From positions 1-24,127 of IMG/VR virus record IMGVR_UViG_3300031825_000068: DNA of 24,127 nt; one strand, written 5' to 3'. Position 1 is the stretch's first letter. Every line of letters starts with the position of its first letter. A program made the position numbers and the translations under genes. Source of the stretch: a virus. Positions 3,690-23,564 of this stretch are shown here, piece by piece. The notes below the pieces were generated by a model that worked only from the letters and a program-made list of their open reading frames with translations, made no database searches and was not told the origin of the DNA.

Positions 3690-3699
3690 GGTGTTTACA

Positions 3700-3897
3700 A
3701 TGCTATGTAGTCCAGGAGGTAAATGCGAAAGTTGTCAAGAGCCTTGCCACACTTATGACTTATACCTTAAAGATAAGTTCTTTGGCAATGTAGCCCAAAA
3801 TGGATTCTATCAGCCAATGCCGATGGATGATGCTATAAAACAGTGGATAACCACCAGGAAAGCAGGCATTCAATCTTATATAGTTGCAGTGAGGTGA
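3700..3897 (+). CDS. Small Cys-rich protein of unknown function
   Basis: A 65-aa protein with C3, C9, and CESCQEPC (C9, C12, C16), so a small metal-binding or disulfide cluster is possible. The remainder is mixed polar and aromatic, with no membrane segment. ATG 3700 is preferred (GAGGTG upstream, just after the terL stop). The longer frame opening at 3664 would run inside terL. It is the first of five short genes between terL and portal. Function unknown. Confidence 0.65.
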   Translation: MLCSPGGKCESCQEPCHTYDLYLKDKFFGNVAQNGFYQPMPMDDAIKQWITTRKAGIQSYIVAVR

Positions 3898-3901
3898 TAT
3901 T

Positions 3902-4078
3902 ATGACGTTCGCTATTTTTACCGCTGTTGTTGCAGTGGTATTTTTGTGTATAGGCTACGGCTTTGGATACAGCACCAAGGTAGGGCAAAATGCCTTGCAG
4001 AAGATTGTTGAGGTAGCTAAAGAGGTTATACCTAAGCCGCAAGAGGAAGAGAAACAAAGGGGATTTTATGATAGGTAG
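3902..4078 (+). CDS. Small single-pass membrane protein
   Basis: A 58-aa ORF starting at ATG 3902 four nt after the previous stop, with GAGGTGA just upstream. Residues 3-23 are a continuous hydrophobic segment (AIFTAVVAVVFLCIGYGFGY). An amphipathic, Lys/Glu-rich tail follows, ending in FYDR before TAG 4076-4078. The layout suggests one N-terminal transmembrane helix with a cytoplasmic tail. No family is recognised. The position among packaging genes is shared by many tiny phage membrane proteins of unknown role. Confidence 0.7.
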   Translation: MTFAIFTAVVAVVFLCIGYGFGYSTKVGQNALQKIVEVAKEVIPKPQEEEKQRGFYDR

Positions 4079-4102
4079 AACGCCAAGGAGGTGAGAGCGT
4101 CA

Positions 4103-4327
4103 ATGGAAGTAAAATACAATTCGCACCAGGAGTTAATTGAGTCAGCACGAAAAACATATGAAGCACATGCTGCAAGCTTTTTGAAAAATGCATTTCCGAC
4201 TATATTTAGCGATCAAAAGTCATACCCACCAACATTAAGTCGACGGATAAAATTAAGATGGTATGGTTTCAGGTTTTGGTTAGCGGATCTGTTAGAGTGT
4301 GCAGCAGAAAACATTAAGCCATATTGA
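4103..4327 (+). CDS. Small hypothetical protein
   Basis: A 74-aa basic, aromatic-rich protein with helix-prone N- and C-terminal halves and a central SYPPTLSRRIKLRWYGFRFW segment. A perfect AAGGAGGTGA (4085-4094) lies 8 nt before ATG 4103, so this start is strongly favoured over the in-frame GTG at 4091, which lies inside the ribosome-binding site. No family is recognised. Confidence 0.65.
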   Translation: MEVKYNSHQELIESARKTYEAHAASFLKNAFPTIFSDQKSYPPTLSRRIKLRWYGFRFWLADLLECAAENIKPY

Positions 4328-4350
4328 ACGCCAAAAGGAGAGTGTCGAGA

Positions 4351-4539
4351 ATGGTTAAGCAAACTTTCGTCTATATCTGCCACTACTGCAGGAAAGAGCA
4401 TAAGCAAGAAGCTACCATCAGTTTTGATGGGCCCGTCCTAATGCCTTGTCTGCCCCTAGGATGGCGGAGAATAGAATACTCCCTTGTTTGCGATGAACAT
4501 ACCATCGAAATAAACATCAAAGAGAAGGCGAGCGAATGA
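4351..4539 (+). CDS. Small zinc-finger-like protein
   Basis: A 62-aa protein with CHYCRKEH (C10, C13, H17 region), then LPLGWRRIEYSLVCDEH. The spaced CxxC and CDEH pairs with a GW turn between them resemble small treble-clef or zinc-ribbon proteins common in phage genomes. It is a likely zinc binder; the partner is unknown. ATG 4351 has AAGGAG upstream at a 10-nt spacing; an in-frame TTG at 4324 is less likely. Its TGA overlaps the next gene's ATG (ATGA at 4536-4539), so the two are translationally coupled. Confidence 0.65.
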   Translation: MVKQTFVYICHYCRKEHKQEATISFDGPVLMPCLPLGWRRIEYSLVCDEHTIEINIKEKASE

Positions 4540-4838
4540 AAGAGTTTCGCATAGATGAAGAACTGCTGAAGCAGAACGAAAAAGAACTGCTAGGTCCTAA
4601 AAAATATTGGTTTCAGGTGGGTTTAAAAGAATTCCGCTGTCCCAAATGCGGAAAGCTGCTCGGGAAAATCTACGGTAAGGCTGAAATAAAATGCCCACGA
4701 TGTCAGGAGACTAACACGGTAGATACGGTTGTTAATAAAAACATCAACAGAAGCCACGAAATTATAGCAATAAAGATGCTATTGGATGCTAGAATCATAA
4801 CGAAAGAAGATATATTATCCGTTATTAATACTATCTGA
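4536..4838 (+). CDS. Mu Com-like zinc-ribbon protein
   Basis: A 100-aa protein with a clear zinc ribbon, FRCPKCGKLLGKIYGKAEIK then CPRCQETN. The ligands are C35, C38, C53 and C56. This matches the Com family of Mu, where Com binds mom mRNA and activates its translation. The N-terminal 30 residues and the C-terminal helical part (about 70-100, IKMLLDARIITKEDILSVI) go beyond the short Mu Com. No mom-like modification gene is visible in this window, so the RNA target here is unknown and could be a late phage message. The start overlaps the preceding stop (ATGA). A terminator follows directly. Confidence 0.75.
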   Translation: MKEFRIDEELLKQNEKELLGPKKYWFQVGLKEFRCPKCGKLLGKIYGKAEIKCPRCQETNTVDTVVNKNINRSHEIIAIKMLLDARIITKEDILSVINTI

Positions 4839-4847
4839 GAGCCTTTG

Positions 4848-4879
4848 AGCCCCTTACCTTAACCGGTAGGGGGCTTTTT
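4848..4879 (+). terminator. Intrinsic terminator before the portal gene
   Basis: An 11-bp stem with one G-U pair (4848-4858 with 4865-4875), loop TTAACC, followed by TTTTT. It ends the small-gene cluster. No promoter is evident before the portal, so it may be leaky or antiterminated. Confidence 0.8.
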
Positions 4880-4904
4880 CTATTTATAAGGGTGGTGATA
4901 AGCA

Positions 4905-7022
4905 TTGGGAATATTAGCAAAAGCAATGGAAGTGGGCAAAAACTTGGTCGATAGCGTGCCTGAGGGGTTGCGCCCAAGGTCGCAGATGAACACAAAAGAG
5001 GAATGGGCAGCCTTGCAAAAAGTTAAAGCCTGGCTGGAAGATGACAAACAGGCCAAGCAGGACTTTACCGACGAAATGAAGGAGATGCACAAAGCCTATA
5101 TGGGCGACCATTGGTCACTCAAAGGGCCTACTGGTGTCCAGATAAGAAGTGCAGAAACCCAGGCTAATAAGCCTAACTCGGTTGACAATCTTATTTTCAG
5201 CCAAATTGAGGGCTTCGTTGCCGAGTTTAGTATTGACCCCGAGATAGTCTGCGAGCCTACCGAGCAGGATGATGACGACAACTCCAACGCACTAAATGAG
5301 TTAAACCAATTCCTGCTAAACAAAAACAAGTTTGACGATGAGCAGGCACGTTTGCTCCGGTACGGCTTCAAGTACGGCCCATTTATAGTTCAGGACTTTT
5401 GGGACCCGTCATGGCAAGGCGGCAGGGGACCTAATCGCTGGATCGGTGATGTACGCATAAAAGCTCTGCACCCTGATGTCCTGTATATTGATGCCCGGTG
5501 CAAACAGGATATACAGGCCGCTAGACGGGTGCATAAGGTTGTCCGCTACCCCTTGGAGTATTTCAAGGAGAGCTATCCCGAAAAGGGCCAGTTTGTCAAC
5601 GAGGATACCGGTAACCACTTCCAAACTGTCGGTGACGATGACGAGGACACCAAGAGCCGTAACCGGACAGCTTGGCAGATAGAAACCTGGTACAAAGGAT
5701 TCCCGATGCTCGGCGAAAACAAAGGTTATGGCCTACATGTGGTATGGTGGTCAGGTGATGGGGATGTAATGCTTAAGCATCAGTCTTATATTTACCCCGA
5801 GCCGAGATACCCCTTCATTTTCCGTAACATCTACGAACGAGAAGGCACTATTTGGGGGTTCGGCGAGATTAAGCAGATTTTATCCCCGCAGATTATCCTC
5901 AACAAAGAGGATGAAATGATTCTCGAGGGTAACATGCACCAAGCCTTTGGGCAGACATTCTATAACCAAAACGGCACCATAAACGACAAGCAACTTAATG
6001 GACTTATTGCCAAAGGCACATTGCCCGGCATGTGGTTCCCTGTGCAGGACGTTAATGGTATTAAGAGATTGTACGGTACTGGTATGCCAGCCTCAGTAAT
6101 GCAACACCGTGAAGCAAAAATGCAAGCCTTGGAAGCTATTACAGGACGTTTTGACACCACGCAAGGAAAGACTCCCGCTGGGGTTACAGCGGCTAGTGCC
6201 ATTATGGAGCTTAATAACCGAGCTACTAACCGTCTGAAGGCCAAAGAGAAGGTCCTGAGGGCGGTTTACAAGGAGATCGGCGAGAAGAATAATGAATTTA
6301 TCTCCTGGTACTACACCGAAAAAAGAGGTTACCGTATCCTTGGCACCGACGGGAAATATCAGCACAAAGACTTTTCTAACAGTCAGATCAAAAAAGTTCA
6401 CATCTTTGCAAACAGCATAAAAGATAGCAAGGTAGTTCCCTTCCATGAATTTAGCCCGAAAGGTGCTGGGGTTGATCCGACCACCGGCGAACCAAAAGAC
6501 CTTGTGGAGAACGAAGATTATGAAGTCTATGCACCCGAGTATGATGTTTCCTGCAAAATCGGCAATGAATTACCTATTGGTAGAGCCTACTACATGGAGC
6601 TAGCCAAGGAATTATATGCACAGGGAGTCATAGACAAACGCGCAGTTCTCTATGTGCTTGAGAATGGCAAGCTAGAGCCAATGGATGAGATTCTAGAACG
6701 GATGGAGCAGCAAGCGCAGCCGCCACAAGGGCCGCAGTTCCCACAAGGCAAACTTCTGCCTCTTGGAGCCAAATTAAGCATGTCAATTAGCGACGAAGCA
6801 TTCATTCACGACATGCTAATGAACACCCAACAGGCTGGGCAGGAGCAAATGCAACAGCTAATAAGCGAACTGCCGCCTGAATTGCAACAGATAGTGTCGC
6901 AATTGCCGCCAGATAAGCAACAAATATTTCTGACGCAACTTTTACAACCACAACAACCTATAGAGGGAGGTGATTTAAATGCCCAAAATGAGTCCACAAA
7001 TGGCTATGGCAGTGCAGAGTAG
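4905..7022 (+). CDS. Portal protein (P22-like)
   Basis: A 705-aa protein forming the dodecameric channel at the head vertex through which DNA enters and leaves. The N-terminus has a helical region (KEEWAALQKVKAWLEDDKQ), then NKPNSVDNLIFSQIEGFVAE and the long mixed core. YGFKYGPFIVQDFWDP and the stem/crown-like helix around residues 420-480 (ATNRLKAKEKVLRAVYKEIG) fit P22-type portals. Length is close to P22 gp1. The C-terminus is Gln/Pro-rich (QQAQPPQGPQFPQGK and later QPQQP), a likely flexible or barrel tail. The start is TTG 4905, set by GGTGGTGA at 4891-4898 with a 6-nt spacer; ATG 4926 is a poorer alternative. The last 44 nt overlap the next small gene. Confidence 0.9.
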   Translation: MGILAKAMEVGKNLVDSVPEGLRPRSQMNTKEEWAALQKVKAWLEDDKQAKQDFTDEMKEMHKAYMGDHWSLKGPTGVQIRSAETQANKPNSVDNLIFSQIEGFVAEFSIDPEIVCEPTEQDDDDNSNALNELNQFLLNKNKFDDEQARLLRYGFKYGPFIVQDFWDPSWQGGRGPNRWIGDVRIKALHPDVLYIDARCKQDIQAARRVHKVVRYPLEYFKESYPEKGQFVNEDTGNHFQTVGDDDEDTKSRNRTAWQIETWYKGFPMLGENKGYGLHVVWWSGDGDVMLKHQSYIYPEPRYPFIFRNIYEREGTIWGFGEIKQILSPQIILNKEDEMILEGNMHQAFGQTFYNQNGTINDKQLNGLIAKGTLPGMWFPVQDVNGIKRLYGTGMPASVMQHREAKMQALEAITGRFDTTQGKTPAGVTAASAIMELNNRATNRLKAKEKVLRAVYKEIGEKNNEFISWYYTEKRGYRILGTDGKYQHKDFSNSQIKKVHIFANSIKDSKVVPFHEFSPKGAGVDPTTGEPKDLVENEDYEVYAPEYDVSCKIGNELPIGRAYYMELAKELYAQGVIDKRAVLYVLENGKLEPMDEILERMEQQAQPPQGPQFPQGKLLPLGAKLSMSISDEAFIHDMLMNTQQAGQEQMQQLISELPPELQQIVSQLPPDKQQIFLTQLLQPQQPIEGGDLNAQNESTNGYGSAE

Positions 7023-9537: not shown

Positions 9538-10080
9538 ATGGGATACACCCATTTTGACCAAGTAGCTGGAGTTAACGGTTTAGCTGTAGGCGCAAAAGGT
9601 GCAGAGGTTGCCGTTGCTAGCGCGACCGGACAACTCTCCCACCTAGGAACAGCACTAACACCAACAGCCGCAGAGATTAACAAACTAGCAGGCCTTGGTA
9701 CTGGCAGTTTCGTTGTCGGTCAAAAGTTTGAAGTTACTTTCCCGCAGATAGCTGCTGCAGACGTGGCTAAAACCTTCTTTATTGCTCCTGCGGCCTGTAA
9801 AATTGTATCTGGTTACGAACGACACGTTACCGTAGCAGGGCAAGCAGGAGTATTGACAATTGAAAAACTGACAGCAGCACAGGCCCCTGGTTCTGGCGGC
9901 GATTGTTTCACAACTGGTTGGGATTTGACAAGCACAGCGAATACATCAGTAAGTAAAACAGCAGTAACCACAGCGGTGGGGACACTTGCGGCAGGTGATG
10001 CGTTGTGCTTAAAGATGCAATCAGGTGCGGCCACATCTTACGCCCTGGGAACAATTACGGTTACGATGCAGTGGGTATAA
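9538..10080 (+). CDS. Virion structural protein, head-fibre or decoration-like
   Basis: A 180-aa Ala/Thr/Gly-rich protein. Residues about 40-56 contain LTPTAAEINKLAGLG, a short motif seen repeatedly in phage fibre and surface proteins. The remainder looks all-beta: KFEVTFPQIAAADVAKTFFIAP, GVLTIEKLTA and LGTITVTMQWV. A surface beta domain attached to the capsid or neck is likely, since it follows the capsid gene immediately. The start is ATG 9538 with GGAGGTGA (9525-9532) 5 nt upstream. I cannot assign a named family. Confidence 0.6.
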   Translation: MGYTHFDQVAGVNGLAVGAKGAEVAVASATGQLSHLGTALTPTAAEINKLAGLGTGSFVVGQKFEVTFPQIAAADVAKTFFIAPAACKIVSGYERHVTVAGQAGVLTIEKLTAAQAPGSGGDCFTTGWDLTSTANTSVSKTAVTTAVGTLAAGDALCLKMQSGAATSYALGTITVTMQWV

Positions 10081-10086
10081 TCGAGT

Positions 10087-10112
10087 AGGAGGGGGCTAAA
10101 GCTCCCTCTTTT
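10087..10112 (+). terminator. Intrinsic terminator-like hairpin
   Basis: AGGAGGGGGC (10087-10096) pairs with GCTCCCTCTT (10101-10110) with G-U pairs and a TAAA loop. TTTT (10109-10112) overlaps the stem end. It lies just after the 180-aa structural gene. Confidence 0.6.
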
Positions 10113-10129
10113 CGCCTATGGAGGTAGTT

Positions 10130-10354
10130 ATGAAAACCACCGAGGAATTATTATCACAACCACAAAATACCAGCACAAACGACCTTTTGCAAGCTATCTT
10201 GCGGGAGGTTTATTTGCATAGGAAGGAGTGCGAAAAATGCAGACAAGAGGGGAATTCTTTGAAAAAATTATCATCGATGCAGCAGCAATCCGGGACACCA
10301 ACGCAGTCACCTCGCAAAAAGCAAACCTCCAAGGCCTCAGCAAAAAAGGTTTAG
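10130..10354 (+). CDS. Small protein with possible frameshift-linked second domain
   Basis: A 74-aa ORF starting at ATG 10130 with GGAGGT upstream. Residues 1-40 are helical (TEELLSQ..NDLLQAILREVYLHRKECEKC), a form common at the N-terminus of small phage head/neck proteins. Residues about 41-74 are low-complexity Ser/Gln/Lys sequence, which fits overprinting by the next gene in the -1 frame. The last codons read GCA AAA AAG GTT TAG, so an A AAA AAG slippery heptamer lies two codons before the stop. A -1 slip there would give a 153-aa fusion with the C-terminal beta domain of the next ORF. Function unknown. Confidence 0.55.
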   Translation: MKTTEELLSQPQNTSTNDLLQAILREVYLHRKECEKCRQEGNSLKKLSSMQQQSGTPTQSPRKKQTSKASAKKV

Positions 10355-10590
10355 TAGTGATTAATGGCTTAAACCAAAATATTAACGTGCAACTTCAGGG
10401 AGGCTCAGATAATACTACATTTATAAATGTCGGTACTGCTCAAACCGTGAATAACGGCACTAATGCCATTATCGGCGAAAATGAAGTCGCACAACTAAAG
10501 AACTACTTTCCATACCTCAGGGCAATAATCACGGCGGCTTTAGCCCCAGCAAGCGGAACTTGCTCTGTTATTGCAGTAGCCAGCTTATAA
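10237..10590 (+). CDS. Small beta-rich virion-associated protein
   Basis: A 117-aa protein with strands separated by short turns: KIIIDAAAI, ANLQGLSKKGLVVINGLNQNI, VQLQGG and LRAIITAAL. The pattern resembles small jelly-roll-like domains of phage neck or surface proteins, where an LxxLNQ-type strand is common. ATG 10237 has AAGGAG (10223-10228) 8 nt upstream, so it can be translated by itself. It overlaps the preceding ORF by 118 nt in the -1 frame. It could therefore be a separate overlapping gene, or also the second half of a frameshift product. Confidence 0.65.
   Translation: MQTRGEFFEKIIIDAAAIRDTNAVTSQKANLQGLSKKGLVVINGLNQNINVQLQGGSDNTTFINVGTAQTVNNGTNAIIGENEVAQLKNYFPYLRAIITAALAPASGTCSVIAVASL
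10342..10348 (+). other. Candidate -1 slippery heptamer A AAA AAG
   Basis: In the frame of the 74-aa ORF the codons are GCA AAA AAG GTT TAG, an exact X XXY YYZ arrangement of the efficient bacterial A AAA AAG heptamer, two codons from the stop. The -1 frame downstream is the beta-rich ORF. A GGTTTA/TAAACC stem (10348-10353, 10370-10375) begins immediately after the heptamer, which is closer than the usual 5-9 nt spacer. The signal is therefore weaker than the one at 18609. Confidence 0.4.
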
Positions 10591-10595
10591 AACAT

Positions 10596-10618
10596 CCCCC
10601 GACCGCAAAGGCCGGGGG
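10596..10618 (+). terminator. GC-rich hairpin before the connector gene
   Basis: CCCCCGACC (10596-10604) pairs with GGCCGGGGG (10610-10618) with one mismatch and a GCAAA loop. It is followed by TTCCTCTTC, not a true T run, so termination may be weak. Confidence 0.5.
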
Positions 10619-10644
10619 TTCCTCTTCGGAAAGGGGTGAAAGTA

Positions 10645-11229
10645 TTGAATTTCGCAGCATTAAAAACTCAGGTTGAAAGTGTGACCGGCACGAGCACAGA
10701 AACCGGACGGTTCCTGAATGAAGGACAATTGGAATTAGCGCAGGAATCGAAAAGGCGCAAGAAAGTTTCCATAGCCATAACCGCAGGGGTAGCCACAATC
10801 CCAACAGACTGCCTGGTTATCCATACCATTAGGTATGGCAGTGCATCTTTGGGTTATGCCGACCTCGACCAAGATAAGCCAACAATGGACATTTCTACGT
10901 CCACTACAGATACACCGATCAAATATGCTGTCCTAGATGGGCAGATTTTACTTAATACTCTGGTTACCGTGACCGCCTTATCAAACACGGCAGTTCTTTT
11001 CTATACTCCCAAGCCAGCCACAATGACTCTCGATGCCGACAACCCCGAGTTAACCAATGCCGATACTGCATTGATCTACTATGGCAGATGGAAGAATTAT
11101 GTTGAGGGTGAGGATATCCAGGAAGCTGCTTATTGGGAAAACGAATGGTATAAAAAGGCTGAGGAATGGATTCAGATGGATGCAGAACTAAACTCCGAAC
11201 CGCCGCAACAACAAAAGACTGTGTGGTGA
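10645..11229 (+). CDS. Head-tail connector / adaptor protein
   Basis: A 194-aa protein with the usual adaptor layout. The N-terminal helices contain GRFLNEGQLELAQESKRRKK, a beta-rich middle part follows (VSIAITAGVATIPTDCLVIHTIRYG), and the C-terminal helices are YYGRWKNYVEGEDIQEAAYWENEWYKKAEEW. These are features of podovirus/siphovirus adaptors (P22 gp4 or SU10-adaptor type) that bind under the portal. The start is taken as TTG 10645, 5 nt after AAGGGGTGA (10631-10639). The in-frame GTG 10636 is part of that ribosome-binding site. It is directly followed by the gp10-like hub, matching the P22 order gp4-gp10. Confidence 0.75.
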   Translation: MNFAALKTQVESVTGTSTETGRFLNEGQLELAQESKRRKKVSIAITAGVATIPTDCLVIHTIRYGSASLGYADLDQDKPTMDISTSTTDTPIKYAVLDGQILLNTLVTVTALSNTAVLFYTPKPATMTLDADNPELTNADTALIYYGRWKNYVEGEDIQEAAYWENEWYKKAEEWIQMDAELNSEPPQQQKTVW

Positions 11230-11234
11230 TATAA

Positions 11235-12656
11235 ATGATAAGACCTGCACAATATCAATATAAGCCTCAGCAATTCAATTATAAAGAATGGCCCATAATC
11301 GACCTCTCCGGCGGCAAGAATGACTTTCTGGACGATAATCTCATTAAAGGCAACCAAGCCACCGATCTGCAGAATGTTATTTGTGTCACCATAGGCCGCC
11401 TACAAAAGCGTAAAGGGCAGGCTAAACTAAATACTGCCGCTTTAGCAGGAGCCATTCAGGGGCTTTATGCCTACTATTACGGCGCAACTCTGCAAAACCG
11501 CCGAATTATCACAGTTTCCAATGGTGTCGCCTACTATTGGGATGGTGCGGCCTTCCAATCATTCCGGACCGGTCTATCCACTACCAACCAAGTCCAATTT
11601 ATTACCGGCGTTAACTACATGATGGGCTTTGATGGCACTGCGCCATTCAAATATGACGGGACAACCGCCTCAACCTTGGCGAATGCGCCAACAACCGGAA
11701 AATGTCCGGTTCTGCATAAAGAAAGCGTGTTCGTTATCACTGATCTGGACACTATCAGGTGGTCTGACCCATTCAAGCCCGAATCATGGCCCGGGGTCAA
11801 TGTTTGGCAATTCGACAAGGGCGATGGTGACGAACTTGCTATGGCAGTCCCTTTTGGTGGGCAATATTTAGCCTGCAAAAAGCGGAAAATCCACCTATTG
11901 AGGGGAAGTAGTCTTGATGATTTCCGTTCTGATATAGTCGACAACAACCATGGAGTAGTCGGACAGAGGGCGGGAATCGTGCTCGAACCGTATTTCTACT
12001 ATGTCAGCTATGATGGAATCATGCTATTTGATGGTATCAAGTCAACCAACCTGACTGCTGAAACTATTCCCCTGACCTGGGCAGGGGTAAATAAAGCCCA
12101 GTTAAGCAAAGCAGTGGCCGGATACAACCCGGCATATAACCACCTATGGTTTCATCTTCCGGAAGGAGCTAGCACTACTAATAACTTGGTGCTGGTTTTT
12201 GACTTGAACTTCAAAACCCTATGGATATTCCGGGGCATCGAAGCTGCCGCAATGATGCAGTTTAACGACGGCACCAACCTGAAAACTTACACCGGACATG
12301 CTACATTAGGCCATGTTGTTGAGCAGAATATAGGCTTCAACGACTTGGGAGTAGCCATTACATCCTACTGGCAGGGCGGAGCATTCGACGACGGGGATCC
12401 TGTTCGAGTGAAGAAAATCAAAAAGCACTTCGCAGCAGATGCCAACGGCCTGAACGATGCTACCTTCAAATACCGGCTGAACTATGGCGCATGGCAGACA
12501 CCTACGGCCCAAACTGACAAGGATAACGTTCGGAAATATCGGATACCTAATGGCAAATGCCGCCAGTTTCAGCCTCGCTATGAACACGCCGTATTAGACC
12601 AGGACTTCACGCTGTCCGGTGCTAAAACACTCTTTGACCCGGGGAGGGATAAGTAG
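11235..12656 (+). CDS. P22 gp10-like tail hub / stabilisation protein
   Basis: A 473-aa protein, almost exactly the length of P22 gp10. It starts with a GGKNDFLDDNLIKGNQATDLQNV segment followed by a series of repeated short beta blades: ITVSNGVAYYWDG, YMMGFDGTAPFKYDG, ESVFVITDLDTIRWSDP, YYVSYDGIMLFDG and YNHLWFHLPEG. This pattern fits a beta-propeller-type hub that plugs the portal-adaptor channel and carries tail appendages. ATG 11235 follows GGTGATATAA. The stop TAG shares bases with the next gene's GTG, so the two are coupled. Assignment is by pattern, length and gene order. Confidence 0.7.
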   Translation: MIRPAQYQYKPQQFNYKEWPIIDLSGGKNDFLDDNLIKGNQATDLQNVICVTIGRLQKRKGQAKLNTAALAGAIQGLYAYYYGATLQNRRIITVSNGVAYYWDGAAFQSFRTGLSTTNQVQFITGVNYMMGFDGTAPFKYDGTTASTLANAPTTGKCPVLHKESVFVITDLDTIRWSDPFKPESWPGVNVWQFDKGDGDELAMAVPFGGQYLACKKRKIHLLRGSSLDDFRSDIVDNNHGVVGQRAGIVLEPYFYYVSYDGIMLFDGIKSTNLTAETIPLTWAGVNKAQLSKAVAGYNPAYNHLWFHLPEGASTTNNLVLVFDLNFKTLWIFRGIEAAAMMQFNDGTNLKTYTGHATLGHVVEQNIGFNDLGVAITSYWQGGAFDDGDPVRVKKIKKHFAADANGLNDATFKYRLNYGAWQTPTAQTDKDNVRKYRIPNGKCRQFQPRYEHAVLDQDFTLSGAKTLFDPGRDK

Positions 12657-15616: not shown

Positions 15617-15639
15617 AAGGGTAACAGGAGGTGTTTTTC

Positions 15640-16434
15640 GTGCTTAAAAAAACTCTCGTTGCCCTTATTATTATATTCTCGTTACCCTTAAACGCATGGG
15701 CGGCCATGCAAGTAATAGAAATGGACAATTTACCGGAAGACCAAATAATAGAAGAATATACTGTTTCCCCGGTAAGCAATCCCGATGACGAATTAATGCC
15801 AACTTGGGCTGTCCAAAAGGAAGTGTCCCATTTACAAAAAGCTATTCCTTTATTAAATAGGGTTAATTGGAATGTCTATGTAATAAACCAGCAGATTAGC
15901 ATGCCAAGTTTTAAATTAAGCGTTCCATTAGCTGGATATGCAAGACGTTTTCCCAAACCTTATAAAGTATTCCTTTTTGCTTCCCCAAAAACAAACAAAT
16001 ATACTGCTTATGATCTGGTTGAACACGAAATAGGGCATTTGGTGAGATATGAGGTTATTTCAAAACAAGATTTGCAAGAATATGTTGATTTGCGCAATGA
16101 TGGTTTAGAGCGCGATGGCTACTATGATAAACCTGACGAATTGTTTGCAGAAGATTTCCGTTGGCTATTTGGTTCGGATGGTAGTCGGGATTATAGGTAC
16201 ATGCCGACTTATCCCAAGCCTAGCGAAAAGGAAAAAGAGTGGATATTGAATCATGTTTTACTTACTTGGCAAGATAAATTAGAATACTACAAAATTGACC
16301 ATGATATAGGTTTTAAGGAAATACTCAGGGCTAAAGAATTATATGATCAAAGAAAAGCAAGAAAAGATTACAAAGGGGCAGAATTGGCCCATTTATGGGC
16401 TAATCAAGTAAGGAAAGCAATAGGTATATTCTAG
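15640..16434 (+). CDS. Secreted HExxH zinc metallopeptidase (ATLF/M34-like)
   Basis: A 264-aa protein starting at GTG 15640 behind AGGAGGTG. Residues 1-21 are a signal peptide (LKKTLVALIIIFSLPLNAWA, cleavage after AWA at 21), so it is exported. The zinc motif is HEIGH (H129, E130, H133) in YDLVEHEIGHLVRYE. A likely third ligand lies in ELFAEDFRWLF (E167 or E171). The combination of short secreted length, HExGH and a downstream xFAExF helix resembles anthrax-lethal-factor-like and Pro-Pro endopeptidases of Bacillota; this is a motif-level inference. It carries its own promoter and terminator and interrupts the tail operon, so it looks like a moron active in the host rather than a virion part. 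Codon use is more A+T-rich than in the head genes. Confidence 0.75.
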   Translation: MLKKTLVALIIIFSLPLNAWAAMQVIEMDNLPEDQIIEEYTVSPVSNPDDELMPTWAVQKEVSHLQKAIPLLNRVNWNVYVINQQISMPSFKLSVPLAGYARRFPKPYKVFLFASPKTNKYTAYDLVEHEIGHLVRYEVISKQDLQEYVDLRNDGLERDGYYDKPDELFAEDFRWLFGSDGSRDYRYMPTYPKPSEKEKEWILNHVLLTWQDKLEYYKIDHDIGFKEILRAKELYDQRKARKDYKGAELAHLWANQVRKAIGIF

Positions 16435-16529: not shown

Positions 16530-17759
16530 ATGGCAACTATACAAGAACAAATGAAAGCGAATAGCGAAAAGTGGTGGACAGCATCACCAACTGAAAAAAA
16601 GCAGTTAGAAGCTGCAAATCAATCTTTAGGCAAACAGACAGGTTTAAGTTACAATTCGTCTTCAGGAACTTGGAATAATCCCAGCGGTACACAAGCTTAT
16701 ACTGTTAATTCTGGTTCTAGTGGGGGTTCTGGTTCAGGCGGAGGCTATGGTTCTGGGAGTTCCGGAGGTGGTTCATCTCCTAACCCTAGTGCTTACCCAT
16801 CTTATCTCACTGGCGTAACCGGCAACAAAGATGGTACATGGCAGGAACGATTACGGCACTACTATGACAACCCCGGAGAAGTAGCCGCAGAAATAACTAG
16901 AGCGGGAGGGATTAATACTCCCGATGCTAATGACTGGGTAAATAAGCTGAGTCCTATTATTCCTGGTTATTCTCAGGTTTTAGGGAATCAAACTCCAGTT
17001 TCTGGACAGGGCAATCTACCGCCTGGCAATCCCCCGACCACAACCCCACCAGTTACAGTGCAATCACAAGGGAATAACAGTGATGCCCTTGCTCGGCTAC
17101 AGAAAATATTTGATCAATACGCACAGAACAGCACTACACGTCAACAAACTTTGCAGGATTTGCTGACCGCATCTCCGACATATAAGGCTCCTACCGCTGA
17201 TGAAATGCTTGCCCAATCTAGGCAATATGCAGGGCTTCAGGTTGACCCTGTATTGTCGGCTATTCAGTCACGGTTGTCTGGTGCGAGAACTTCTGCTACC
17301 AATGCTAGAACAGCTACAGAGGCGGCTTACGCAGGAGTTCCGGCACAGACTCAGGCGAGACTTGAAGAGGCTCGGAGATATGCACTAGAAAACGCCATAT
17401 CTCGGGGAATGGGCAGATCCGGGGTGGTCGAGTGGAACAATGCTAAGCTGTCTGCTCCAATTATCCAAGCAGAAACCGAATCCGAGAGAGAAAAAGCCGC
17501 CAAGCTATCGGCCATCGCTAACGAGTTAGCAAATACTGAATCGGAAACCGGCAGACTAACGCAGGAAACCGAGGCCAGGAGAGGCGCCTTGGAAAGCGCC
17601 CGACTAACTGAACTGCAGCAACTAGCCCAGCAGTTAGCCGCCCAAGATCAGCAAACAAGGTTTAACCAGGGACAGGCATGGGCTAATTATGGGTCACAGT
17701 CTGATTTGGCACAAGCGAGTATAAGAATGCTGATGGAAGACCTCTTAAGGAACGGATAA
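16530..17759 (+). CDS. Internal virion / DNA-entry protein candidate
   Basis: A 409-aa protein in three parts. Residues 1-52 form a compact module (MKANSEKWWTASPTEKKQL...GLSYNSSSGTW). Residues about 55-90 are a Ser/Gly linker (GSSGGSGSGGGYGSGSSGGG). After a Pro-rich stretch (about 150-180), residues about 185-405 are Ala/Gln/Glu-rich helix with coiled-coil character. No signal peptide or enzyme motif is seen. The position before two other entry-type proteins, in a phage without tape-measure genes, suggests an ejected or internal tail protein as in P22 (gp7/gp20/gp16). Identity is inferred from context. ATG 16530 has GAAGGGAGG upstream. Confidence 0.55.
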   Translation: MATIQEQMKANSEKWWTASPTEKKQLEAANQSLGKQTGLSYNSSSGTWNNPSGTQAYTVNSGSSGGSGSGGGYGSGSSGGGSSPNPSAYPSYLTGVTGNKDGTWQERLRHYYDNPGEVAAEITRAGGINTPDANDWVNKLSPIIPGYSQVLGNQTPVSGQGNLPPGNPPTTTPPVTVQSQGNNSDALARLQKIFDQYAQNSTTRQQTLQDLLTASPTYKAPTADEMLAQSRQYAGLQVDPVLSAIQSRLSGARTSATNARTATEAAYAGVPAQTQARLEEARRYALENAISRGMGRSGVVEWNNAKLSAPIIQAETESEREKAAKLSAIANELANTESETGRLTQETEARRGALESARLTELQQLAQQLAAQDQQTRFNQGQAWANYGSQSDLAQASIRMLMEDLLRNG

Positions 17760-17775
17760 GGGAGGGATAAATAAA

Positions 17776-18621
17776 ATGGCAACAATAGATGAAGTTTTAA
17801 GTCGATTGTCAAAAACCCCCGTTAGCCCTGTTGGAAATGCTTTCACCGAGGCTCAAGATTTAACTAGAGGAATTGTGCAATTTCAAAAAAATCAGCGAGC
17901 ACAACCTTTAATCACTAATTTGCAGGACTTGAGCAGCCAGTTTGCCCAAGCTCCTACCGTCCAACAATCGAAACTCAACGCCCGAGCCAATGCGCTCAGG
18001 GCGGCCTATATTAATTCTGGCGGCAGCCCAACGGACTTGCCAAAGGAACTGTGGGGTTCCGACCCTAGTCAAGGATTCCAGACGGGTACGGGACAGTTTA
18101 ATTTGGGATCTGCCGATGACAATTTGAGTTTTGGCCAGAAGTTAAAACGGGCTCCAATTACCGGAATGTTTGAAAACAAGCCGATTTGGGAGAGGCAATA
18201 TCAACAGGGATTATTGGATATATCGAGATTAAATGCTCAAAACACACAAGATAAAAATTATTTGGATAAAATGATGGATATCCAAAAGAATCTTACTGAA
18301 CAGGGGAATAAGCAAACCGAAAATATTAATAAAGCAATCCAAGATGCTCACATCGCCATTGATAAAGCTATGGTCAGGATACCCAACCCCGATTCAAAAA
18401 CTAGATCGACTAATCCGTATATTATGACTAATATGCGTCCTGAAATGAAGTCGCAAATGAAGGATGTATTTAACCGCACTTTCGATAGACTGCGCACTAA
18501 CGGGATAACAATGCTAACTCCTGATATGCAAAAGGCTGTTCTTCAAGAACTTCCTGAAGGTGGTGGTTGGGACGTAATTAATGCCTTAAATAGTGCTCTA
18601 AAGACCTCCCCAAAGCAGTAG
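17776..18621 (+). CDS. Entry protein candidate, 0-frame product (281 aa)
   Basis: A 281-aa helical, Gln/Asn-rich protein from ATG 17776 (GGGAGGG upstream) to TAG 18619-18621. It has an N-terminal VLSRLSK segment, a Gln-rich middle (QFAQAPTVQQSK), KLKRAPITGMFENKPIWERQYQQGLLDI, and a likely coiled coil at about 165-195. No family is recognised. The gene directly follows the 409-aa protein and precedes the 1542-aa protein, so it belongs to the entry block. Its last codons, TCC CCA AAG CAG TAG, hold a -1 slippery heptamer, so this product is probably the majority form of a two-product gene. Confidence 0.75.
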   Translation: MATIDEVLSRLSKTPVSPVGNAFTEAQDLTRGIVQFQKNQRAQPLITNLQDLSSQFAQAPTVQQSKLNARANALRAAYINSGGSPTDLPKELWGSDPSQGFQTGTGQFNLGSADDNLSFGQKLKRAPITGMFENKPIWERQYQQGLLDISRLNAQNTQDKNYLDKMMDIQKNLTEQGNKQTENINKAIQDAHIAIDKAMVRIPNPDSKTRSTNPYIMTNMRPEMKSQMKDVFNRTFDRLRTNGITMLTPDMQKAVLQELPEGGGWDVINALNSALKTSPKQ

Positions 18622-18923
18622 GCTCCGGTTCCGTTGATTCTTGGGTTGATGAAGCTATTACAAAAACCGGAGTCGGAGCGGATTGGAAACCATATCTCAA
18701 TTGGATAATCCAGAAGGAAAGCAGTGGTAACCCACAGGCACAAAATAAAAAATCTTCAGCCTATGGTCTGATGCAGTTCCTTGACCAAACTTTCAAAAAT
18801 CATGGTGTGGGTTCAAGGGATAATCCAGTAGATCAAATTGTTTCCGGCATTGGTTACATTAAGGACCGTTACAAAACACCGGAAAAAGCAGTAGCCTTTC
18901 ACCAGAAAAAAGGTTGGTATTAA
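17776..18923 (+). CDS. -1 frameshift product with lytic transglycosylase domain (382 aa)
   Basis: Predicted as join(17776..18615, 18615..18923): 280 residues from frame 0, then 102 from frame -1. The -1 frame encodes a lytic transglycosylase (SLT-type) core. The catalytic Glu motif is IIQKESSGNPQAQN (E315), followed by SSAYGLMQFLDQTF (GLMQ at 331-334), DNPVDQIVSGIGYIKDRY, and the ending AVAFHQKKGWY typical of tail-linked SLT domains. The domain would cleave peptidoglycan during DNA entry. It has no usable start codon: the -1 frame opens only after a TAG just upstream of 18596, and the first in-frame ATG lies inside GLMQ. A separate gene is therefore unlikely. A simple frameshift mutation is the alternative, but the slippery site and stem argue for programmed frameshifting. 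Confidence 0.75.
18609..18672 (+). promoter_or_regulatory. Programmed -1 ribosomal frameshift signal
   Basis: Slippery heptamer C CCA AAG (18609-18615) in the correct NNX XXY YYZ phase of the 281-aa ORF, with the 0-frame stop at 18619-18621. After a 7-nt spacer (18616-18622), CTCCGGTT (18623-18630) pairs perfectly with AACCGGAG (18665-18672), giving an 8-bp GC-rich stem with a 34-nt loop; G18622 and T18673 can add a wobble pair. No clear pseudoknot partner was found by eye. Confidence 0.75.
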
Positions 18924-18935
18924 GGGGGTGGACTC

Positions 18936-21900
18936 ATGTCTTTGGAAGATAGCCTCGACGCAGCTATACAAAAAGCAAAAAAGAATACATTGACTCCTAC
19001 TGTCACGGATGCTCCTGCCAATACTTCCGATTTGGAAAGCAACCTCGACGCAGCTATACAAAAGTACAAGAACCCTGATGCTTTCGTTAATAAACCAAAA
19101 CCTACTCCTGTAGATTATAACAGCCTTGAATTTAAACCTGTCTCTGTTCGTAAATCTACAGCAGAACTAGAAAAAATAGCTGAAACTCCACAAGGTAGAG
19201 CATCTATAAGCGAAGCAGATTGGCAGAGACTTTACTTTAATAAGTCTAAAGCCGCTGATTTGCTTAATTTAACTCCTGAAGGAAGAAATTTAACCGAACA
19301 ATTTGGAGAAAAGCAATATAAGGCAGACCTTCCTAATCGCCCCATACTGCAAAAGCTTGAACCACTTCGCCAATGGAACGAACGGGCAGGGGATGCATCT
19401 AATAGGGTATCCTATTTTGACGATACACCTACCACTGCGACTACTGGTAATAAGTGGGGGGATATGTCGGCTGATGTTTTAGGTAGCTTGGCTGGCTTTA
19501 TAAATCCTATGGCCGGCGGTGGTGCATTAAAAGCCGGCAGAGTAGCAGAATTGTTCCCGCAACTTGGCAAAGTTGGGCAAGGGGCTTTGCATGGGTTAGC
19601 TGGCGGTGCTGCCTACGGTACTGCCGGGGGTATTGTGCAGGGCCAATCTGCCACCGATACCGCTATACGTGCGCTGAAAGAGGGTGCTTTGTTCGGTTCT
19701 ATGGGTGCTGGTGGCGCATTAGGTAAAATCCCCGGAGCATTAGCAGGTGCAGGCGTATTCGGTGGCCAGACAGCGTTAGAGGGTGGAACTCCCCAGGATA
19801 TTGTGACCCAAGCCGCTCTAGGTCTTTTGCTTGGCGGTGCTGGTGGTGCAGGCAGAGAAGTCAATAAGCCATGGGTGGCAGACAAACCTGCATTCACCGA
19901 AACATTCCAAGCTGAACCTGTTGACAGAATTCCTTTGCGATTAGGCACTGGTCAACAAACCGGAGGTAAGGTACATCCAAAATGGCAGCTGCCTTCTGGT
20001 GAACCAACAATTGCAGGGTTGTTGCCGGTTCGGGGCCCTGTCGATTTCTATTCTGGCGAAGCAGGTATGTCAAAGGATATAAGTTCGGCTGGAAGAAGAA
20101 TGATCCCCTCCGGCAAAGAAGAACCCTTTGGACTATTACCAGAAGGAACAAGACCAGATTTCTATGCCGGTGATGCTGGAATTTCAGCAGATATTAACGC
20201 TGCTGGAAGAAAATTATTACCAGCTTCCGAGCAAGTTCCGCTATTGCCGGATAGGTTCGTGAAAGGTCAGCCAGATTTCTATGCCGGACCGGAAGGAGTT
20301 TCGACCAATAAGGATATGATCGCTTTATACGGTCAAATTAAGCCCGTAGTTGACCGCTTGTTTGTTCCAGGTGTAAAGCCTAGCAGAGATGCTTTAGGAC
20401 GAATCCTAGACCAAAGCGGAGTGCGGGTAGCCCCTGGGCAAAGGACAGAACTAATTAACTTGCTGCAAGGGCTTGAAAAATCCAAACCACAACTTTCCCC
20501 GACAATCCTACAATCTATCAAAGGCACCAATTACAGGCAAGACTTAGCGGATTATTCCGAAACGGCTAAATCACAAAGAGAACTTGGCCGTGAAATGGAT
20601 ACCATTATAAACCAAGAAACTGCTTCCAGGTACGACATCGAAAAGCAAGCCGCTCAGGCTAATCCACTTTGGCAAGCCATAAAAGAAAATGGCGGTATTA
20701 AGCCTTATAAGAATGGTTATTTGGCCGAAGAATACAGGTTGATGCCCAACAATATTAAGAACAAAAATGGCATAACACTTGATGAAATGGCTTCCACTCT
20801 AGGTTACGAAAGCGAGAGTTCTTTAGTGGCAGATCTAGGCAACCAGTCAGCAAGGCAGGTTCCTAAATACTCAGACATTAAATCTGATGTTTTGGGTGAC
20901 GCTGAATTAGGAAGAATGCCCGAATATCAAGCATTGAAGAAAACTGCTGAGGCCATTGATAAAGACATAAAGGAACTCGAAAGAACAATAGCTCCTGGCG
21001 ATAAGCAGAAAATAATCAAGCAGCTTGATGCAATGGAGCGATTGGCTAAAAACCGTATCGAGGGCAGAAAAGACCGCCTATTGTCCGGGGTGCCAGTGGA
21101 CACGTTAGCAGACTATGCCATAATTGGTGCTGCCAAAATAGCGAAGGGCACCATTAGGTTTGCGGATTGGTCCGCTGTCATGGTTAAAGAGCTTGGGGAA
21201 AATGTTCGTCCCCATCTTGAACATCTCTGGAAATCTGCAAAATCCGTCTACCAGGAACAAGCGAAAACAAATAGGTTCATAGATCGGGATGAAGTTATAA
21301 AGCGGTTTTTAGACAAAGAAAAGGCAGCAGAGGTAGCCGGAGGCCCGAATACTTTCGGTGTCGACCCGACCCAACTAAAAGACATTGATGGACCTCAAGT
21401 CTACGGTACCGATGCTTATCGCATTTTCGAGAAAGTTTATGGCGATAAGTTTCCGGAAGCAAAGAAAGCCATTCTCGACCCGTTCGATGCATCGAAAAAG
21501 GAATATATCGACTTTCAGAAAAATTGGTTAGGTAAGCTCAAAACGGAGATAGTTGAGAGGTTAGGAATTAGCAGGGGAAGTAAATTATCAGCCTTGGTCC
21601 AGAGATACGGCGAAGGCGGCAGAAGATACTTCGACAAGAAAAAAGGCGAAACTATCCTTGAAGCGTACACCTTGGAGGATTTGAAGCGTGATGCTCCTAA
21701 TGATTGGCAGATGATAGTCGAAGCGGATAAGTGGTTCAGGAAGGCTTATGACCAGCTCATCGATGAGGTAAATGTGGTTCGTAAACAAATATACCCCAGA
21801 AGTCCAGACAAAATAATCCAGAAGCGGCAGGATTATTATCGGCACTTCAGGGAGCTGGAAGGGTTAGAAGGAATCAAGAATATTTTCGAAACCCCGGCTA

Positions 21901-23564
21901 ACATAGACCCCAATTTGGTAGCTATATCCGAATTTACTCAACCAAAGTCAAGGTTCCTTGGATTTGCCCAAAAGAGAGGTCTGGGGCCATACAAAGAGGA
22001 TGCAGTTGGAGGTTTCTTAAACTATATTCCTGCTGCTTCATATGCTGTTAATATTGACAAGCATATCCGTGTTTTCGCCAAGTTGGCCGGCGATTTATCG
22101 AAGGCGACAAAGAAAACCAAGAATCTTAATAATTTTATCAACTTCCTTCGCAAGTACGCCCAGGATTTAGCTGGCAAAACTAACCCAGCAGATCGGTTTA
22201 TTCAGGAGGCCATTCCTGGTGGCAGGATGGCGTTTAACGGTATCCGGTGGCTTAATAACAGGGTAAAGGCTAATGCTGTTCTCGGTAATGTCTCGTCTGC
22301 TCTGGCGCAGCTCGCCAATATACCGCAGGGCATAGCGTTTGCAAAACAGCATTCGGCAGAGGGGTTGGCTAGGTCCCTGCGTGCTATTGTGCCATCGGAA
22401 AATAACCCCATGAACCAATCCGGGTTCTTGGCAGAGCGTTACGGTGGCCCTGGTGGGGCAATGTACCGGCAGTTTGATACTAGAATAATCGATCAACCTA
22501 AAAAAGTGGCTGCTTGGGTTATGGAAACGGCTGACAAGTTAGGCACTAACTTTGTATGGAACTCTGCTTACTCTAAAGCGGTTCGGGAGAAAGCTTCTAA
22601 TCCCGTCAAGTATGCAGACGATGTAACTAGAAAACTGGTTGCCGGTAGGGGTATTGGCGAAATGCCACTAATACAAAAATCGCAGATTACTCAAGTATTC
22701 TTTCCGTTCACCCTGGAAGTGGCCAACCTCTGGAAGGTGCAGAAAGACTTTCTCAAAGACAAGGATTTTACCGGGCTTGCTGTTCTCTATGTGGCTAACT
22801 TCCTGTTTAATAAGGTTATGGAGCAGACTAGGGGCTCAGGAGTGACCCTCGACCCCATTCAAGCTACCCTGGACGCATTCCCGGAACTAAAGCCTTATGT
22901 TGGGCAGGAAATGACTGCCGATGATCAGGACATTACCCCACTTCAGAGAGGCGGAAGGTTGGCCGGCGAAGTATTATCTAATTTACCTGCCGGTCAATAT
23001 GCTGCTTCATTATATCCCGAATACGGTACGGATATACTTGGCTATCAACTACCGACCAGGAAAGAGCTTTTTGGCAGGAATGACCCGACTAGATTCGGGA
23101 CTGGCGTTGCTATTGTTAAGGGATTGCAAAACCCGTTTTATAGGCTTGCACTGCCTTTCGGTGGAGGACAATTACAAAAGACCCTGAAAGGGAAAGAAGC
23201 TATTGAGTTGGGTGGTAGTTACAACAAGGATAAAACCAAACTTAACTATCCGGTTGATACTGACCCTGCGAATGCGCTCAGCGGTTTATTGTTTGGCCCT
23301 GGCGGCTTCAGAGAAACCAAGGATTACTATAATAACAATAGGCGGCCGCTTGGAGAGAATCAGACTCGGCAATTTCAAGAAGATGTTAGAAGTGGCAGAG
23401 ACCCCAAAGAGCTATACCAGCAACTTTTGAGGGATCGAGTGATCGAGGGTATCCAAGAGGAAATTGGTAAGGTTGGGCAAGATGCGAAGATGAGCGAAGC
23501 GGAAAAGCGGAAGAAAATAGCGGAGCTAGAAGCGAGAGTGAAAAGTATAGTGCGGCAAAAGTAA
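18936..23564 (+). CDS. Giant internal virion / ejection protein (1542 aa)
   Basis: A 1542-aa protein from ATG 18936 (GGGGGTGG upstream). Residues 1-46 hold two copies of a (S/N)LDAAIQK helix. Residues about 175-305 are Gly/Ala-rich and hydrophobic (LAGFINPMAGGGALKAGR, ALHGLAGGAAYGTAGGIVQG, AALGLLLGGAGGAG), a membrane-active or pore-like segment. Residues 361-465 carry three copies of a GLLP..PDFYAG..G(I/V/M)S repeat. The rest is mostly helical and polar: about 540-760 coiled-coil-like, and about 800-1400 like the large polyvalent proteins of podoviruses. No peptidase or muramidase motif was seen; the wall-cutting function may come from the upstream frameshift product. The likely role is a transenvelope DNA conduit. 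Length and position fit an ejection protein. Confidence 0.7.
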   Translation: MSLEDSLDAAIQKAKKNTLTPTVTDAPANTSDLESNLDAAIQKYKNPDAFVNKPKPTPVDYNSLEFKPVSVRKSTAELEKIAETPQGRASISEADWQRLYFNKSKAADLLNLTPEGRNLTEQFGEKQYKADLPNRPILQKLEPLRQWNERAGDASNRVSYFDDTPTTATTGNKWGDMSADVLGSLAGFINPMAGGGALKAGRVAELFPQLGKVGQGALHGLAGGAAYGTAGGIVQGQSATDTAIRALKEGALFGSMGAGGALGKIPGALAGAGVFGGQTALEGGTPQDIVTQAALGLLLGGAGGAGREVNKPWVADKPAFTETFQAEPVDRIPLRLGTGQQTGGKVHPKWQLPSGEPTIAGLLPVRGPVDFYSGEAGMSKDISSAGRRMIPSGKEEPFGLLPEGTRPDFYAGDAGISADINAAGRKLLPASEQVPLLPDRFVKGQPDFYAGPEGVSTNKDMIALYGQIKPVVDRLFVPGVKPSRDALGRILDQSGVRVAPGQRTELINLLQGLEKSKPQLSPTILQSIKGTNYRQDLADYSETAKSQRELGREMDTIINQETASRYDIEKQAAQANPLWQAIKENGGIKPYKNGYLAEEYRLMPNNIKNKNGITLDEMASTLGYESESSLVADLGNQSARQVPKYSDIKSDVLGDAELGRMPEYQALKKTAEAIDKDIKELERTIAPGDKQKIIKQLDAMERLAKNRIEGRKDRLLSGVPVDTLADYAIIGAAKIAKGTIRFADWSAVMVKELGENVRPHLEHLWKSAKSVYQEQAKTNRFIDRDEVIKRFLDKEKAAEVAGGPNTFGVDPTQLKDIDGPQVYGTDAYRIFEKVYGDKFPEAKKAILDPFDASKKEYIDFQKNWLGKLKTEIVERLGISRGSKLSALVQRYGEGGRRYFDKKKGETILEAYTLEDLKRDAPNDWQMIVEADKWFRKAYDQLIDEVNVVRKQIYPRSPDKIIQKRQDYYRHFRELEGLEGIKNIFETPANIDPNLVAISEFTQPKSRFLGFAQKRGLGPYKEDAVGGFLNYIPAASYAVNIDKHIRVFAKLAGDLSKATKKTKNLNNFINFLRKYAQDLAGKTNPADRFIQEAIPGGRMAFNGIRWLNNRVKANAVLGNVSSALAQLANIPQGIAFAKQHSAEGLARSLRAIVPSENNPMNQSGFLAERYGGPGGAMYRQFDTRIIDQPKKVAAWVMETADKLGTNFVWNSAYSKAVREKASNPVKYADDVTRKLVAGRGIGEMPLIQKSQITQVFFPFTLEVANLWKVQKDFLKDKDFTGLAVLYVANFLFNKVMEQTRGSGVTLDPIQATLDAFPELKPYVGQEMTADDQDITPLQRGGRLAGEVLSNLPAGQYAASLYPEYGTDILGYQLPTRKELFGRNDPTRFGTGVAIVKGLQNPFYRLALPFGGGQLQKTLKGKEAIELGGSYNKDKTKLNYPVDTDPANALSGLLFGPGGFRETKDYYNNNRRPLGENQTRQFQEDVRSGRDPKELYQQLLRDRVIEGIQEEIGKVGQDAKMSEAEKRKKIAELEARVKSIVRQK
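18953..19073 (+). repeat. Short direct repeat encoding (S/N)LDAAIQK
   Basis: A 21-nt identical sequence occurs at 18953-18973 and 19053-19073, exactly 100 bp apart, with similar flanking bases starting TTTGGAA. It encodes two copies of LDAAIQK near the N-terminus of the 1542-aa protein. Confidence 0.85.
20016..20330 (+). repeat. Three-copy peptide repeat in the giant protein
   Basis: Residues 361-390, 399-430 and 436-465 repeat the pattern LLP-x(n)-(P/V)DFY(A/S)G-x-x-G(M/I/V)S. The first two also share DI.(S/A)AGR(R/K). The copies have diverged in DNA, so this is an old protein-level duplication. Confidence 0.8.

Follow-up and report, generated by a model that had tools for sequence, protein, structure and literature searches.

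Podoviruses such as T7 and P22 carry a lytic transglycosylase or murein hydrolase on a virion protein (gp16 and gp4, respectively), which serves DNA entry. In these phages the enzyme lies in one reading frame with the rest of the protein, and is therefore present on every copy. The locus described here resembles them in that a wall-cutting enzyme is borne by a putative podovirus virion protein, but differs in that the enzyme is predicted to be on only a fraction of the copies, being encoded in the -1 frame (here called B) at the end of a first open reading frame (ORF A). In the dnaX gene of Escherichia coli (tau/gamma), ordinary decoding yields the long product and the short one arises from a -1 slip. 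Four relatives of our locus (L094, L145, L097 and L216) are like dnaX, in that a slip would give the short product, although the proteins are unrelated and the window and most relatives have the opposite polarity.

The heptamer used by G/GT of phage lambda is GGGAAAG. Frameshifting makes the G/GT tail assembly chaperones in lambda and in most long-tailed phages (PMC5009743). The present arrangement is similar, with a -1 slip at an X XXY YYZ site near the end of the first ORF, and few fused and many plain copies predicted. However, neither G/GT product is found in the virion and the -1 domain of GT binds the tail tube protein, whereas the -1 domain at our locus is a peptidoglycan hydrolase of the SLT type, the phage is podovirus-like, and there is no tape measure gene downstream, a profile search with the next gene having given no tape-measure match. 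An identity of A and B as G/GT was rejected on the grounds of the SLT domain and of this next gene. Frameshifting also provides capsid and tail proteins with extensions, in gene 10 of T7/T3, Lactobacillus phage A2, Listeria phage PSA and Privateer (PMC5009743, PMC7881722). These are like our locus in placing an extra C-terminal domain on a minority of copies (predicted in our case), and in having in-frame and frameshifted versions among relatives; the extensions described are decorative or Ig-like, whereas here the extension is an enzyme, swapped among several hydrolase families.

The PRFect paper names lysins among the genes known to contain a frameshift (PMC10885494). A literature search on frameshifting with virion hydrolases, ejection proteins and Bacillus or Paenibacillus podophages, which covered few subscription papers, found no virion hydrolase attached in this way, and agrees with the remark in the initial annotation that no such case is described. 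It is likely, though not certain, that a virion hydrolase appended by frameshifting is new to the literature.

The slip site and the transglycosylase frame

The window, meaning the whole 24.1-kb IMG/VR stretch analysed, encodes a P22-type portal (Pfam E 2e-17), a Mu gpT-type capsid, and tail and structural genes, with a holin-like ORF at its end. The features discussed below are collected in Table 1.

Table 1. Positions of the features of the A/B locus within the window.
Feature	Position	Strand	Remarks
409-aa protein, possible structural partner of A	16530..17759	+	immediately upstream of A
ORF A, 281-aa protein (plain product)	17776..18621	+	TAG stop 18619-18621
-1 reading frame B	18594..18923	+	read from about 18615 after the slip; TAA stop 18921-18923
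Slippery heptamer C CCA AAG	18609..18615	+	X XXY YYZ, in phase with ORF A
Spacer CAG TAG	18616..18621	+	holds the 0-frame stop; 6 nt ahead of GCTCCGG, family-typical spacing
Putative stimulatory stem-loop	18621..18674	+	18621-18630 pairs with 18665-18674
SLT lytic transglycosylase domain (PF01464)	18681..18884	+	ESSGNP and GLMQ motifs; Pfam E 8.9e-14
Giant 1542-aa protein, putative ejection protein	18936..23564	+	next after B, in relatives as well as in the window

ORF A sits between the structural genes and the giant putative ejection protein, and because of this position its product, which has no known family, is most likely a virion or ejection protein of a P22/T7-like podovirus. Family and profile searches with the window A protein (Pfam, PHROGs) gave no family match. 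AlphaFold was used to predict structures for window A and for the natural A-B fusion of L094, with pLDDT values of 51 and 60 respectively, too poor for a fold match, and Foldseek found nothing significant. The 409-aa protein encoded just upstream aligns with a 757-aa ORF of L116 at 36.7% identity over 139 aa. Also among the late genes, at 15631-16434, is a 267-aa ORF whose product apparently has a signal peptide, together with a HEIGH zinc-protease motif (weak DUF2268 match).

The final codons of ORF A are ACC TCC CCA AAG CAG TAG, so that the heptamer ends one codon ahead of the stop. It is in the correct phase, as had been claimed from the initial reading of the sequence, and is the only canonical heptamer within the 28-nt overlap between ORF A and the open -1 frame. 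The 8-bp stem proposed earlier (18623-18630 with 18665-18672) is real, and extends to 10 contiguous base pairs, including one G-U, which enclose a 34-nt loop and begin 5 nt past the heptamer. The minimum-energy fold has a slightly shifted register (18622-18635 with 18665-18679), at -21.8 kcal/mol (z -2.8, p 0.025). The 5' arm GCTCCGG is identical to that of two relatives (L095 and L144). An Rfam search gave no match.

By both profile and motifs, B is an SLT lytic transglycosylase, as first annotated: the Pfam match scores 51.5 bits against a curated cut-off of 21.3, and cleavage of peptidoglycan is predicted. Window B is 39-47% identical to the SLT B domains of relatives, including the catalytic ESS and G-L-x-Q-F-L, and residues E35 and G51-L52-x-Q54 are invariant across the aligned SLT B domains. 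A search of PDB sequences with B gave no match at E 0.01.

The stop of B is 12 nt ahead of the start codon of the giant protein, which shows a weak match to an internal virion protein (phrog_342, E 0.0045). Residues of about 690-790 form a segment of ~100 residues that is 37-54% identical to the giant proteins of L097/L187, L099 and L100, and may be an exchangeable module, the remainder being mostly hardly alignable. Near the start of the giant protein, at about 18951-19065, an exact repeat of ~20 nt, CTCGACGCAGCTATACAAAA, encodes LDAAIQK twice.

Layout and exchangeable hydrolases among relatives

IMG/VR pattern scans with A, the SLT domain, the giant protein and the portal gave no direct orthologs. 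Relatives were reached via portal alignment and then capsid alignment, and whole-genome searches with an A protein and a B domain added further ones. They make up a large set of prophages and viral contigs, in most of which the capsid is about 37-53% identical to that of the window. Where a host is named, it is mainly a Paenibacillus (P. jilunlii, alvei, sinopodophylli, xylanexedens, bouchesdurhonensis, plantiphilus, zanthoxyli and sp. Root52). In the nearest capsid relatives (L115-L128, about 46-53%), the sequence ends before the site or other genes are found there. Comparison by hhalign of window A, and of its 409-aa neighbour, with the family A profile detected no homology. Because window A has no ortholog among the sequences scanned and its kinship with the A family is undetectable, what is shown is conservation of the family layout and of the B domain, not of this exact A gene.

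The layout in relatives consists of an A-type ORF (about 440-680 aa), a slip site, a stem, a hydrolase in the -1 frame and the giant protein. The initial annotation had called for an alignment of homologues, and this finds the heptamer, the spacer and the stem conserved at the level of the family. Protein searches gave 39 distinct A/B sites, window included (34, with L208 left out, and five new ones), and at 30 of these the end of A holds a canonical heptamer in phase. The commonest site is G GGA AAC TGA, others being G GGA AAG TAG, A AAA AAC TRA and C CCA AAA; C CCA AAG followed by a stem is rarer among relatives than G GGA AAC. Slip-capable variants are found at a further eight sites (six G GGG GAG, one G TTT TTT, and one G GTT TTT, similar to the site in gene 10 of T7 that PMC5009743 discusses), and one site, in L203, has no recognisable slip site. 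The chance rate was taken from distinct ends of ORFs of at least 250 aa, not A-type, in the same related phage loci, counting heptamers that end 0 or 3 nt before the stop; a canonical in-phase heptamer is present at 13 of about 1300 such ends (1.0%).

The stem was analysed over 21 aligned sites, where 7 bp starting about 6 nt past the heptamer are paired in 99.3% of cells. In 23 cells both sides have changed (C-G/U-A, A-U/G-C, C-G/G-C), and the covariation score is 0.437; sliding the partner by 1-3 nt gives no more than 0.127. Of a larger set of 57 sites, 28 have a 6-nt spacer and 23 have one of 3-5 nt, the stem being extended outwards in the latter. The stems score a median of 21, against 11.6 for shuffled sequences, with weak stems at a few sites, for example L200 and L226. 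A scan of IMG/VR with the motif GGGAAACTGANNAGCYCC alone found mostly the same A/hydrolase architecture, and the matches bear the complementary 3' arm, which is absent from the query.

The motif scan also reached a second, unrelated family, in which GGGAAACTGANNAGCCCC ends an ORF of 136-247 aa that has a -1 extension of 76-82 codons (NSPGWLAGYAW...), in L239, L241, L244, L250, L254, L260, L265, L269 and L275. This family gave no match in a PHROGs search and is possibly a tail assembly chaperone.

The enzymes encoded behind such sites are SLT domains of two sub-types, glucosaminidases (PF01832) and a VgrG3-like C-terminal hydrolase (PF21277), and in the Bacillus Pagevirus phages an NlpC/P60 and SLT pair in the -1 frame. 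In L099, L141, L147, L165 and L184 the A-type protein is not followed by a hydrolase. Two candidates were set aside: L208, where A is followed by an NlpC/P60-like domain in the -1 frame, has a B start codon beside the A stop and no heptamer, and L194, with an in-frame glucosaminidase, has no canonical heptamer at the junction. In L098/L103, a Paenibacillus alvei prophage, the slip site and stem are intact and a further indel shortly downstream breaks the -1 glucosaminidase frame, of which intact counterparts are present in other prophages.

In the cultured Bacillus phages Page, Pascal and Palmer (L307, 12623-14781, L308 and L310), gp18 (gp17 in Pascal; 417 aa) is followed in the -1 frame by a gene that is annotated separately as 'lytic tail fiber protein', and Pony is annotated likewise. 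Within the overlap in Page, Pascal and Palmer, G GGT TTT is the sole canonical heptamer in phase. The annotated start codon in Page falls within the NlpC/P60 domain, and because of this the gene has probably been mis-started, and would be joined to gp18 by frameshifting. The word 'frameshift' is absent from the text of the genome announcements of Pavlov, Pascal, Pookie, Palmer, Pony and Page.

In-frame fusions and competing explanations

In four relatives (L094, L145, L097 at 9853-12003 and L216 at 3392-5824), A and B form one ORF, evidence that a fused A-B protein is viable. At the junction each of the four still has a canonical heptamer in phase, either G GGA AAC or C CCA AAG, the latter being shared with the window by the more distant L097 and L216. 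In all four a -1 stop follows 2-3 codons past the heptamer, and in three (L094, L145 and L097) there is a good hairpin after it; such heptamers are expected at 0.025 per 50 codons. In L094 and L145 the heptamer has probably been inherited from frameshifting ancestors. The initial annotation had named homologues with both parts in one frame and no slippery site as evidence against its proposal. One-frame relatives do exist, but in them the in-phase heptamer is preserved and the -1 frame stops 2-3 codons further on, and for this reason they do not refute the frameshift. Our hypothesis is that slippage in these four would yield the short form, in a mirror-image arrangement. Having both products thus seems to be conserved, since -1 slippage in the fusions would truncate the protein.

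The existence of these fusions also bears on the possibility that A and SLT are really one continuous ORF in the window, separated by a sequencing or assembly error or by a recent inactivating indel, the window being a metagenomic record. However, an error or indel would by chance have to produce both a heptamer in phase and a stem with the spacing of the family. The separate-frame layout is moreover found in dozens of independent genomes, including every one of the 19 Paenibacillaceae genomes with the SLT version, in which A and B are in different frames with a slip-type sequence. We consider this explanation very unlikely.

We attach a similarly low probability to B being an independent gene, translated from an internal start by termination-reinitiation or from a non-standard start codon. 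It had been claimed from the outset that B has no start codon of its own, and the first ATG, GTG or TTG of the -1 frame in the window is indeed ATG 18771, which encodes the M of GLMQ and lies within the catalytic domain. Most relatives have no plausible start codon ahead of the -1 hydrolase domain. Several do have TTG or GTG 4-16 codons into B, and such starts were chosen by the annotators of the Bacillus phages, but in Page the chosen start lies inside a domain, as noted above, and reinitiation requires neither an in-phase heptamer nor a covarying stem at fixed spacing. Transcriptional slippage, in which a stuttering polymerase makes a fused message, might be thought of for the few relatives with A6 runs (L098, L168), but its probability is negligible, as the typical sites are short (C4A3 in the window, G3A3 in most relatives), the runs that cause polymerase slippage are far longer, and it would conserve neither codon phase nor a downstream RNA stem.

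Programmed -1 ribosomal frameshifting that appends the SLT domain to A is thus, from comparison of sequences, the highly probable explanation, and it is well supported because the in-phase site and its spacer are conserved, the stem covaries, the hydrolase is interchangeable and a start codon is usually lacking. This family-wide conservation supports the central proposal of the initial annotation, that a virion or entry-type protein of a podovirus receives a lytic transglycosylase through a -1 frameshift. Most ribosomes would end at the TAG of ORF A and release the plain protein. The downstream stem would hold up a minority, which would slip in tandem on the heptamer, tRNA-Pro moving from CCA to CCC and tRNA-Lys from AAG to AAA, and would continue in the -1 frame to give an A-SLT fusion predicted at 382 aa. 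The fusion would place a peptidoglycan-cutting domain on a subset of A copies, aiding the delivery of DNA through the cell wall. We infer that both products are present in the virion, and that the ratio between them would control the dose of enzyme.

Implications for penetration of the Gram-positive wall

A broader proposal, which we put forward tentatively and with slightly less than even confidence, is that plain and enzyme-bearing A are kept side by side by selection, in most lineages through an appended hydrolase and in others through a fused gene in which the slip site is kept. The ratio of plain to enzyme-bearing copies would on this proposal be a conserved design rule of Gram-positive wall penetration.

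Automatic annotation loses or mis-starts hydrolases that are appended by frameshifting, and the cultured phages Page, Pascal and Palmer appear to carry an unrecognised frameshift of this kind. With these proteins, virion-associated hydrolases would join the short list of protein types made by programmed frameshifting. The wall that short-tailed phages of Gram-positive bacteria have to cross is thick. If a conserved switch in translation fixes how many subunits bear a hydrolase, the number of enzyme copies that a particle needs would become measurable.
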